Shown: piece by piece, positions 1,198 through 27,054 of the stretch
How the letters are laid out: every line of letters starts with the position of its first letter
How positions within the stretch are numbered: the first letter of the stretch is position 1
Assembly: GCA_011176535.1 (NCBI GenBank)
Contig: DUEP01000037.1
Coordinates: 1-37,076, forward strand
Source: Anaerolineae bacterium
GTDB lineage: Bacteria; Chloroflexota; Anaerolineae; Anaerolineales; DRMV01
Length of the DNA: 37,076 bases
Reading direction: 5' to 3'
Made by a program: the position numbers and the translations under genes
Notes under the pieces: generated by a model
Database searches by the model: none
The model's input: the letters and a program-made list of their open reading frames with translations, nothing else
What the model was told of the DNA's origin: nothing

Positions 1198-1361
1198 TGC
1201 CCAGGGGGGATGCTCTGATGCCCAGACCCGCGCCGTCAGGGCCCATGGCGTCACGACCTGACGACGCACGACCCACGCCGCTTGAAATGCCATGGCTTCG
1301 CGCTTGAGGATAGACGGTGGCCACCCTCAGGCCTTTGCCGGGATGCGGGGTCATGTTTTCC

Positions 1362-1705
1362 TTTTCCCCAAGGGAAAGATCAGGTTATCGTAGTCTTCGT
1401 AGGGGCTGGGGAAATGTGGAAAACCCTGGGGATAGTGTGCAAAACCCCTAGGAGTGGGGGAAGCCCTGAAGTCGAGGGCCAGATATGGGGGTTCAGGGCG
1501 GTGGCGCTTTCCCCAGGGGGGTGGGGAAGCCTTGGGGAGATCTGCAGGTCGTTTTTCCACAGGGTTTCCCCAGGTGGCGCGCTACGCCTATATCTGCTAT
1601 GAAGGTGGGAGAAGGCCCCAGATATGGCGTTGCGCTTCAGCGGGCCGAAGCAAGTTGTCCCCACTTTTTGGGGTGTTTTCCACAGATTTCGGGGGGTTTT
1701 CCACA
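1362..1705. other. candidate replication origin: cluster of DnaA-box-like sites
   Basis: This is the core of a 576-base gap between the first gene and fumarase with no credible gene. Five 9-mers fit the DnaA-box consensus TTWTNCACA. Two are on the minus strand: 1415-1423 (TTTTCCACA) and 1436-1444 (TTTTGCACA). Three are on the plus strand, all TTTTCCACA: 1553-1561, 1676-1684 and 1697-1705. The outer pairs have the same 21-base start-to-start spacing and face opposite ways. Degenerate relatives lie between or beside them, for example TTTTCCCCA at 1362-1370 and TTGTCCCCA at 1655-1663. By hand count the plus strand changes from C-rich in the gene to the left to G-rich from about 1381. Against an origin: dnaA is not in the window, and no clearly AT-rich unwinding element or TAG-trio array is visible. 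A DnaA-titration site is the alternative. Confidence 0.55.
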
Positions 1706-1720
1706 GGCTAGCTAGATGGG

Positions 1721-1757
1721 AAAACCAACGGGGCGTCCGCTCCGACGCCCCGTTGGT
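1721..1757 (-). terminator. intrinsic terminator of the fumarase operon
   Basis: A perfect 14-base stem (1724-1737 with 1744-1757) encloses a 6-base loop. Read on the minus strand it is followed by TTTT (1724-1721). It lies 17 bases past the fumarase beta-subunit stop. Confidence 0.8.
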
Positions 1758-1773
1758 CAGACCTTTTGGCCGA

Positions 1774-5980: not shown

Positions 5981-7504
5981 TCAGGACAGATGGGCTTCTG
6001 CGAGGAGGGCGGGGGCGGCGAACAGGTCTTCGGTAAGGCCGTCGAAGGCGATGTGGCCCTGGTGAAGCACCACTGCCCGGCGGGCGTACTCGCGCACGAA
6101 CCGCAAATCGTGGGTGATCATCAGAATCGTCACGCCCTGGCGGTTGAGGTCCCGCAGGAGGTCCATCAGGGCGTAGGCTGTGTTGCGGTCCTGCCCAAAG
6201 GTGGGCTCGTCCAGGATGAGCAGCCGCTGGCCCACGGCCAGCATGGTGCCCACGCTGAGGCGACGTTTCTGGCCCTGGGAAAGGGTGAAGGGGTTGCGGT
6301 CGGCCTGTTCGCTGAGGCGGAAGCGCTGCAGCAGGTCGTCGACCACCTGCCGGATGCGGGCCTCGGGCCAGCGCCGGACGCGGGGGCCGTAAGCCAACTC
6401 GTCCCACACGCGGTCGGTGACGAACTGGTGTTCGGGGTTTTGGAAGACATAGCCCATCCGCTCAGTCAGCCTGGCCGGGGTTAGGTCCTCCAGCCGCTCC
6501 CCGAAAAGCCAGATCTCCCCTTGCGAGGGGCGTTGGGGGAGCAGGCCCATGAGGAGCAGAGCCAGGGTGGACTTGCCGGCCCCGTTGGGGCCCAGCAGAG
6601 CCACGAAGTCGCCCTGGGGAATGGTCAGGTCGATGGCGCGGAGCACCGGCGGCCCATCGGGGTAGGCGAAGGTCAGCCCGTGCACGGCCACGGCGGGAGG
6701 ATGTTCCACCAGAGGGGGGAAGGTCTTCGGGGGCGCGGACCGGGTTCGGGGGTCCAGGGAAAGGGGAACCCAAATCCCGGCGCGCAGCACCTGGTCCAGA
6801 TGCGCCTTCAGGGTGGGCAGAGGTTCGCCTTGGGCCAGCAGTCCCCCCTGTTCGTCCAGCAGAATCACCCGGTCGGCCAGGGGTAGGCAGGCGCTCAGTT
6901 TGTGCTCGATGAGCAGGATGGTGTGCGTGCCCTTGAGGTGCGCCAGGGTCTCGAAGAATTCGCGGGTGGCGCGAGGGTCCAGGTTGGCCGTGGGTTCGTC
7001 GAGGATGAGGATGGGGGGGCGCATGGCCAGCAGGGCGGCCAGCGCGATGCGTTGCATCTCGCCGCCGGAGAGGGTGTCCAGCCGTCGGGTGCGGTAATCA
7101 GGCAGTCCCACCTGCTCCAGGGCCGTCTGGATGCGCGCGGCCATCGCCTCGGGGGGGACGCGCAGATTCTCCAGGCCGAAGGCGAGTTCGTCTTCCACGG
7201 TGAGGGTGGCGAAGGATGCTTCGGGGTCCTGCAGGAGCAGGCCCACGCGGGCGGCCACGGCTCCGGGCGCGGCCTGGGTGGGGTCGAGGCCGTCCACGGT
7301 GATCCGGCCCTGGATGTGGGCGAAGATGTCGTGGGGGATGAGGCCGGTGAGGGTCAGGGCCAGGGTGGATTTGCCGCCGCCCGACGGCCCCAGCAGGACC
7401 ACCGTCTTCCCCTCGTGGATGGTCAGGCTGAGGTGGCGCAGGGCCGGGCGGGCGGTGTGCGGGTAGCGTACGGTCAGGTGTTGGGTGCGCAGGGCGATGG
7501 GCAT
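5981..7504 (-). CDS. ykoD: ECF-type transporter double ATPase (YkoD-like)
   Basis: This 507-residue cytoplasmic protein carries two complete ABC ATPase domains in one chain and should energise uptake of a thiamine precursor. Domain 1 has Walker A GPSGGGKST (39-47), signature LSGGE (145-149) and Walker B ILILDEPTANLD (166-177). Domain 2 has Walker A GPNGAGKST (305-313), signature LSQGQ (408-412) and Walker B LLILDEP (428-434). The YVFQNPEHQFVTDRVWDEL stretch of domain 2 is typical of energy-coupling-factor ATPases. It is the last intact gene of the operon, 54 bases after the YkoE-like gene; the ribosome site (AGGGG) is weak. The usual third partner, a CbiQ/YkoC-type transmembrane T component, is absent from the operon. 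Substrate is inferred from the riboswitch and partner. Confidence 0.88.
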   Translation of the reverse strand: MPIALRTQHLTVRYPHTARPALRHLSLTIHEGKTVVLLGPSGGGKSTLALTLTGLIPHDIFAHIQGRITVDGLDPTQAAPGAVAARVGLLLQDPEASFATLTVEDELAFGLENLRVPPEAMAARIQTALEQVGLPDYRTRRLDTLSGGEMQRIALAALLAMRPPILILDEPTANLDPRATREFFETLAHLKGTHTILLIEHKLSACLPLADRVILLDEQGGLLAQGEPLPTLKAHLDQVLRAGIWVPLSLDPRTRSAPPKTFPPLVEHPPAVAVHGLTFAYPDGPPVLRAIDLTIPQGDFVALLGPNGAGKSTLALLLMGLLPQRPSQGEIWLFGERLEDLTPARLTERMGYVFQNPEHQFVTDRVWDELAYGPRVRRWPEARIRQVVDDLLQRFRLSEQADRNPFTLSQGQKRRLSVGTMLAVGQRLLILDEPTFGQDRNTAYALMDLLRDLNRQGVTILMITHDLRFVREYARRAVVLHQGHIAFDGLTEDLFAAPALLAEAHLS

Positions 7505-7558: not shown

Positions 7559-8314
7559 TCATTCCTCGCGGGCGATGGCAAAGGAGCCTAAAGCCCCGGC
7601 GCGGTAGAGGCCGTCGCCGATGGCCTTGCCCAGCCAGCCGGAGAGCACCGCGCCGGAAATCAATCGGGCGACCAGCATGATGGCCAGGACATTGAGGCTG
7701 AGGTCATAGTACCAAAACATGTAGTCCACCACCAGGCTGCCGATGCCAGCCGCGGCGCCGGCCAGCATGAGGGTAGGCAGGTCGTAGCGTTTGTACCCCG
7801 TGGCGGCAAAGACGATCTCGGCCATCCCACCCTGGACGATGCCGGAAATGAGCAGGGTGAGGCCCCATTCGCCCCCGGCGAGGAACTCGGCCAGGGCCGC
7901 CAGGGTCTCGGCGGCTAAGGCCGTGCCGGGTTTGCGGATGATGTAGGCGGCCACGATGGAGGCGATGAACCAGAAGCCGTACACCAGATCGCGCGTGCCG
8001 GGGAAGAGGGTGTTCAACGGCTTAGCCACCTTCCACACGAAGCCCCAACCCAGGAAGAGCAGGCCAAACACCAGGGCCAGGTTGGCCACCAGGATGACTT
8101 CCAGGGTCTTCCAGCGTTCCAACGCCTGCCGGGAGCCCCAGGCGGCTCCGGCGGCCAGCCCCAACACGGTGAGCACCAGGGCATGGGTGGTGTTCCACTG
8201 GATGTACTCCACTTCGGGGCCGCGCACCACGGCGGCCAGGTAGTACACCAGCAGGGTCACCGCCCCGCCGATGAGGGCGTGGAGCAGCGTGCGGACAGCG
8301 GACTTGCCTTCCAT
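7559..8314 (-). CDS. ykoE: YkoE-like substrate-binding membrane component, thiamine/HMP ECF transporter
   Basis: This 251-residue integral membrane protein resembles YkoE, the substrate-specific component of the YkoEDC transporter assigned to hydroxymethylpyrimidine or thiamine uptake. The YkoE-like part starts near residue 67 (RWKTLEVILVANLALVFG) and includes LFLGWGFVW, LVYGFWFIASIVAAYIIRKPG, a GIVQGGMAEIVFAATGYKRY loop and two further hydrophobic helices. About 65 residues with two extra predicted membrane helices (about 10-30 and 43-61) precede it, which I do not recall in the Bacillus protein. The ATG is preceded by AAGGAGG. It lies between the thiamine pyrophosphokinase and the double ATPase genes under a TPP riboswitch, which supports a thiamine-related substrate. 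Confidence 0.85.
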   Translation of the reverse strand: MEGKSAVRTLLHALIGGAVTLLVYYLAAVVRGPEVEYIQWNTTHALVLTVLGLAAGAAWGSRQALERWKTLEVILVANLALVFGLLFLGWGFVWKVAKPLNTLFPGTRDLVYGFWFIASIVAAYIIRKPGTALAAETLAALAEFLAGGEWGLTLLISGIVQGGMAEIVFAATGYKRYDLPTLMLAGAAAGIGSLVVDYMFWYYDLSLNVLAIMLVARLISGAVLSGWLGKAIGDGLYRAGALGSFAIAREE

Positions 8315-9100: not shown

Positions 9101-9129
9101 CCGATGGTTTCGTCAATTTCCGAAGCCAT

Positions 9130-9233
9130 CCGCCTGCATCCCTCCGCCGGCATTACCCGGATCAGGTGCTACGGGTCGAGGGCTTCCAGCCCTCCTCTCA
9201 GCCCGGTCTCACCGAGCTCCCCGTGCAAGGCGG
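9130..9233 (-). promoter_or_regulatory. TPP riboswitch (THI-box aptamer)
   Basis: Read on the minus strand, the conserved THI-box elements appear in order: CTGAGA near 9200, then the core ACCTGATCCGGGTAATGCC and GGAGGGA (about 9140-9167). The closing P1 helix can be drawn between 9224-9233 and 9130-9138. It binds thiamine pyrophosphate and controls thiN, the YkoE-like and the YkoD-like genes through the terminator at 9075-9100. Confidence 0.95.
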
Positions 9234-26746: not shown

Positions 26747-26784
26747 GAAAAAGAACACGCCCATCCCCTCAAGGGACGGGCGTG
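26747..26784 (-). terminator. T-box attenuator terminator before pheS
   Basis: A 12-base stem (26773-26784 with 26756-26767, one G-U pair) is followed on the minus strand by TTCTTTTTC. The T-box antiterminator would compete with this stem when uncharged tRNA-Phe binds. Confidence 0.88.
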
Positions 26785-27054
26785 GTTCCCGCGGTACCAC
26801 CCTTGTTGGCCGCGCGAAGCGCGACCCACTCCTTACACCCACGGGCAGGGCAACCTGCCTGCCGATGGGCTCCCCGAGTAACGCCGGGGCTACGGCCCGG
26901 ACTACTACGCCTTTTGGCGATTCACCCGGGCGGCTCGGGAGGGAACTTCAGCCGGTTTCTACCGAGGGCGGGTTCCAGCCTGTGCCCGCCCCTCTCTGGC
27001 GGCTTCCGCGCCGGCTTACTTTCCTCCGTCGTCGCCGTTCTCCGTTTCAATGTT
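26785..27054 (-). ncRNA. T-box riboswitch controlling pheS-pheT
   Basis: Read on the minus strand, the highly conserved T-box AAGGGTGGTACCGCGGG lies at about 26788-26804; its TGGT bulge fits the ACCA acceptor end expected of tRNA-Phe. About 140 bases upstream a TTC (26943-26945) in the context CTGAAGTTCCC is positioned as the specifier codon for phenylalanine. An AAAGTAAG segment near 27019 fits the stem I AG-bulge. Low charged tRNA-Phe would therefore turn on the two synthetase genes. Exact stem boundaries were not folded. Confidence 0.92.

Follow-up and report, generated by a model that had tools for sequence, protein, structure and literature searches.

It has long been asked how cells adjust the start of replication to the amount of DNA precursors available. 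In E. coli oriC, a DNA-bending protein (IHF/Fis) acts between the unwinding region and the distal DnaA boxes, while NrdR is known as a repressor of ribonucleotide reductase genes that senses dATP and ATP. In B. subtilis incC/oriC, tandem strong and weak DnaA boxes, a GC-rich spacer and trio repeats make up the basal unwinding system, or BUS (PMC6669920, PMC8287927), and an arrangement of this type recurs at the locus described here; the published search rule for such modules asks for at least three trios of the form 3'-NAN-5' (PMC8287927). NrdR binds palindromic boxes in pairs whose centres are separated by a whole number of helix turns, about three as a rule and four being tolerated (PMC12051234), it kinks DNA when bound (PMC9110341), and in the S. 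coelicolor protein D15 and R17 are described as base-reading, R17 being the base-contacting arginine (PMC9110341).

Here, we analysed a stretch of 37,076 bp (the window), which is the whole of contig C37 of the draft genome of an uncultured bacterium placed by its named relatives in Anaerolineales, Chloroflexota (G000; 129 contigs, 2.27 Mb) and the left flank of which ends at the contig edge; G0xx codes denote the relatives that were compared. We conclude that the region from about 1,350 to 1,710 is very probably the chromosomal origin (oriC) of this bacterium, and we give a probability of roughly 0.8 to the reading that it is an oriC in which NrdR boxes probably make initiation depend on the dNTP pool. 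The features are as follows.

13-1197, plus: Helicase_C_3 protein to the left of the origin, cut off at the contig edge
1350-1389, unstranded: putative duplex-unwinding element, the weakest 40-bp duplex near the boxes, flanking the trios
1388-1402, minus: DnaA-trio-like repeats, on the plus strand 3'-GAT GCT TCT GAT GCT-5'
1403-1406, unstranded: GC-rich spacer of the BUS, from sequence and alignment
1407-1415, minus: weak DnaA box ATTTCCCCA adjoining the trios, at the position of B. subtilis box 7
1415-1423, minus: strong BUS box for DnaA, TTTTCCACA, separated from the first trio by 12 bp
1436-1444, minus: DnaA box TTTTGCACA, at a 21-bp step
1446-1459, unstranded: degenerate partner palindrome, 31 bp from 1477 (score 0.2, weak)
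1477-1490, unstranded: NrdR-box-like palindrome GGCCAGATATGGGG, from motif counts and matrix
1553-1561, plus: middle DnaA box TTTTCCACA, consensus match
1586-1599, unstranded: degenerate partner palindrome, 30 bp from 1616 (score 0.2, weak)
1616-1629, unstranded: NrdR-box-like palindrome CCCCAGATATGGCG, from motif counts and matrix
1655-1663, plus: weak DnaA box TTGTCCCCA that opens the right-hand triplet (21-bp steps)
1676-1684, plus: DnaA box TTTTCCACA of the right-hand triplet, consensus match
1697-1705, plus: DnaA box TTTTCCACA of the right-hand triplet, consensus match
1724-1757, minus: hairpin followed by TTTT, from self-match and sequence; not called by the scan of the block
1774-2394, minus: right neighbour, fumarase C-terminal subunit

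The initial annotation had proposed an oriC away from dnaA on the basis of a cluster of DnaA boxes, and its description of this cluster was accurate: all five TTWTNCACA matches are present (1415 and 1436 on the minus strand; 1553, 1676 and 1697 on the plus strand), the outer pairs have 21-bp steps and opposite orientations, and near-matches of the TTTTCCCCA type occur throughout the interval (1362, 1407 on the minus strand, 1507, 1564 and 1655). TTWTNCACA has six matches in the 37 kb window compared with a mean of 0.68 in dinucleotide shuffles, none of which reached six. Homologous loci were first found by a DNA search with window positions 1200-1773, in which the short, well-conserved segments in relatives correspond to the two ends of the box cluster. 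These loci follow a common plan with TCGTAGTCGTCGTAGGGGCTGGGGAAATGTGGAAAA at one end, then about 265-300 bp, and then DnaA boxes in 21-bp steps; of 41 genomes, 37 have tandem DnaA boxes in 21-22 bp steps, and the control gave none.

On the opposite strand, the left end of the cluster has a strong DnaA box, a weak box, a GC-rich spacer and trinucleotide repeats; this is the order of elements in the BUS of B. subtilis, and we refer to it as BUS-like. The trio repeats at 1388-1402 had been overlooked in the initial annotation. They begin 12 bp from the strong box, within the published limit of at most 16 bp, and adjoin the stretch at 1350-1389, which only 0.28% of the 40-mers of the window undercut in a nearest-neighbour stability scan. 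Of the five trios in the window, 1 and 4 alone carry the conserved middle A, two where the search rule asks for three, and we therefore call the module of the window a BUS variant. Among 35 related origins, which share kinship and are not independent samples, about half have at least three middle-A trios among the five; trio 1 is GAT in all 35, the later trios are mostly GAT or GCT, and in 26 of 35 all five trios have A or C in the middle and four or more end in T, compared with 0.0005 at random. An alignment of 29 origins has no variation at GTAG, in trio 1, in the columns of the box core or in either right-hand box.

A BUS pattern, drawn from about ten of these loci, which are therefore not independent matches, was searched with up to three mismatches in an order-wide sample of 151 genomes, and matched 82 of them, most of which were new, generally as a single copy; the reversed pattern, used as a control, gave 11 matches. 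The single match in G000 falls exactly at the window locus. In the remaining 69 of 151 genomes the strict pattern was absent, it being narrow and the drafts incomplete.

The switch in GC skew that the initial annotation had described at the site is present: skew goes from -0.10 in the 1.4 kb on the left, a value that rests on this short flank and mostly on one gene, to +0.063 in the 35 kb on the right. Of 27 homologous loci that have 3 kb or more on both sides, 24 show a left-to-right increase in GC skew. The mean difference is 0.073 at these loci; other tandem box arrays average 0.021, dnaA genes 0.014 and arbitrary positions of one genome 0.011. In the single-contig relative G028, GC skew was too noisy to place an origin. 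In total, a box cluster beyond chance, a rise in skew, a BUS that usually occurs once per genome and conservation in relatives are the oriC traits found at this locus.

The proposed separation of oriC from dnaA is supported by the BUS-like module, the order-wide architecture and the skew rise at homologous sites; similarly, the dnaA gene lacks a box cluster in G000 and in most relatives, which fits an oriC away from dnaA. In G000 and in all members of the window family in which both were found, dnaA and the origin are on different contigs; in G020, G026, G031, G033 and G040 they are close to each other. In G000 both are near a contig end, dnaA at that of C120 and the origin 1.4 kb into C37, so the two could be close in this genome as well. 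The sequence expected to the left of the window, i.e. the N terminus of the helicase and its usual upstream neighbour, had no match among the contig ends of G000.

The initial annotation had also looked to conservation of the boxes upstream of fumarase, and this part did not hold: the fumarase-linked loci of relatives carry no box cluster, and a link between origin and fumarase was rejected. The origin is flanked by gyrB in G008, rpoB in G002 and G006, a class V aminotransferase gene in G004, G016 and G017, a solute-binding protein (SBP_bac_5) in G003, a ComM-like gene in G005, and an NADH:quinone/Mrp-type (Nuo-like) subunit in G009. Linkage to gyrB was likewise rejected as a general rule, having been seen in G008 only. 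The flanking genes differ between genera, and the origin is conserved yet not tied to its neighbours. In the window itself, the hairpin at 1724-1757 is probably the terminator of the fumarase genes and may shield the origin. Further to the right, the window has a TPP riboswitch (9122-9233, minus strand) beside genes for an ABC cobalt-type permease (7559-8314) and an ABC ATPase (5981-7504), which probably form a vitamin-uptake system, and a T-box leader (26769-27041, minus strand; 97.6 bits).

Tandem box arrays also occur elsewhere. G000 has two, at C94:8662-8713 (L005) and C126:27943-27994 (L004), each with three DnaA boxes in 21-22 bp steps and without trios. Arrays of this kind are also present in G008, G014 and G016, where they come after an inositol-phosphate synthase gene. 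The arrays on C94 and C126 are candidate DnaA-titrating or regulatory sites; as origins, they were rejected because they have neither trios nor a consistent skew change. Their presence in G000 and in many relatives could be taken to mean that the cluster in the window, too, titrates DnaA or regulates genes in the manner of datA or DARS. We consider this very unlikely, since those arrays lack the trio module and have a smaller mean skew difference (0.021 versus 0.073), whereas the BUS is found across the order, usually once per genome, and is unique to loci of the window type. Even less probable is that the conserved block regulates its neighbours, the helicase and fumarase genes, and not replication. 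NrdR and DnaA boxes are usual promoter elements, which speaks for such a role; however, the spacing within the block is kept while the flanking genes vary between genera, both neighbours in the window end towards the block, and a scan of the block found no sigma-70-type promoter.

Motif counting across the 35 origins brought out, besides DnaA boxes and trios, an ATAT-centred palindrome, the copies of which at 1477 and 1616 had escaped the initial annotation. CCANATATGG occurs 20 times in the origins compared with 0.10 expected; its sole occurrences in the 37 kb window are at 1479 and 1618. A refined matrix detected 55 palindromes in 29 origins (1.3 expected), sitting at preferred distances from the trios with a phasing of about 10.5 bp; no palindrome above threshold was detected in six of the 35 related origins.

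The strict form of the palindrome was searched in 21 genomes, and it was through the palindrome that the nrdR-nrdJ sites were found: it lies directly upstream of nrdR-nrdJ in G000 (C83:19716), G002, G003, G010 and G024, directly upstream of nrdJ in G005, and upstream of dnaA in seven genomes. A perfect copy is also present at C21:6495 (L299) of G000, near a gene with a Cas1 domain, and others lie by exonuclease VII in G024 (C196) and by methionine synthase in G002 (C109) and G006 (C27). The nrdJ gene of G000 (C83, L300:4480-8001) carries a LAGLIDADG intein, and those of G002, G005 and G010 have inteins or Hint domains too. A matrix trained solely on nrd and dnaA promoters gave 49 matches in 29 of the 35 origins compared with 1.1 expected, and a match above threshold in five of seven dnaA promoters outside the training set; its column-permutation control had a mean of 3.1 hits, a few high values probably stemming from permutations that leave the motif nearly unchanged. 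Neighbouring palindromes are 31 bp apart in five of six pairs at nrd promoters, and 30-31 bp apart in 21 of 31 pairs in oriC; at dnaA, most pairs have a spacing of 31 or 39-42 bp. These spacings match the published rule of three or four helix turns, and thus support reading the palindromes as NrdR boxes. Moreover, the cognate NrdR proteins of the group keep D15 and have S, I or T instead of R at position 17, in line with a box of altered sequence. Since the palindrome, in pairs 31 bp apart, is present upstream of nrdR-nrdJ in G000 and relatives and also precedes the dnaA genes of most relatives, the assignment of the palindromes as the NrdR boxes of this group is well supported by these comparisons.

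It is nevertheless conceivable that the locus is an oriC in which the palindromes bind another regulator or shape the DNA, and NrdR is uninvolved. The palindrome appears to depart from the E. coli/Streptomyces-type NrdR box, its partner palindromes in the window are weak, and it is missing from some origins of the order, all of which count for this alternative. Against it stand the recurrence of this palindrome, likewise paired at 31 bp, in front of nrdR-nrdJ in G000 and relatives, and the base-contacting residue 17 of NrdR, which has changed in step. On this evidence we regard an origin without NrdR as unlikely, and favour an oriC with NrdR boxes.

In the mechanism that we propose for such an oriC, DnaA would bind the strong box at 1415-1423, spread over the weak box and the GC-rich spacer to the trio strand at 1388-1402, and unwind the DNA to the left, into the weak stretch at 1350-1389, while the right-hand 21-bp triplet (1655, 1676 and 1697) could supply extra DnaA via a DNA loop. 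NrdR loaded with dATP and ATP probably binds the loop segment at 1477 and 1616, and by bending or bridging this segment may tie initiation to the dNTP pool; its targets would also include the nrdR-nrdJ operon and, in relatives, dnaA. We lean slightly towards NrdR aiding loop formation at ample dATP rather than braking initiation, because a brake at high dATP would tend to keep a non-replicating cell non-replicating. What the sequences document is the anatomy, the conservation, the skew and the identity of the motif with that of the nrdR-nrdJ promoter. From these, it appears somewhat more plausible than the contrary that NrdR of the Anaerolineales binds both the chromosomal origin and the dnaA promoter, such that dNTP supply would gate initiation directly. 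If true, a single sensor would stand over precursor synthesis, initiator supply and the origin. Moreover, the order-wide motif offers a simple origin locator in a large group that is known mainly from draft genomes. A search of the open-access literature turned up no mention of NrdR boxes within an origin, nor anything specific on origins of Anaerolineae.

As in B. subtilis, where the distal box group at incC is able to act through a loop, we propose that the distal group acts in this way here too, and the box-to-trio spacer of 12 bp lies within the published peak of 10-13 of the B. subtilis type (PMC6669920, PMC8287927). Unlike in B. subtilis, 3'-GCT-5', with C in the middle, is frequent among the trios, the distal group lies about 280 bp away as an array in 21-bp steps, the origin is usually not beside dnaA, and NrdR boxes lie between the box groups. 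As in the NrdR regulons of S. coelicolor (nrdRJ) and E. coli (nrd), palindrome pairs about 31 bp apart lie at nrdR-nrdJ, and the NrdR of the group has the Zn ribbon and ATP-cone of known NrdR proteins (PMC9110341, PMC12051234). In contrast to the known regulons, the box is CCCANATNTGGG, residue 17 is not arginine, and boxes are also present inside a replication origin and upstream of dnaA. Finally, compared with E. coli oriC, the presumed bending protein at this origin would be a nucleotide-sensing repressor.
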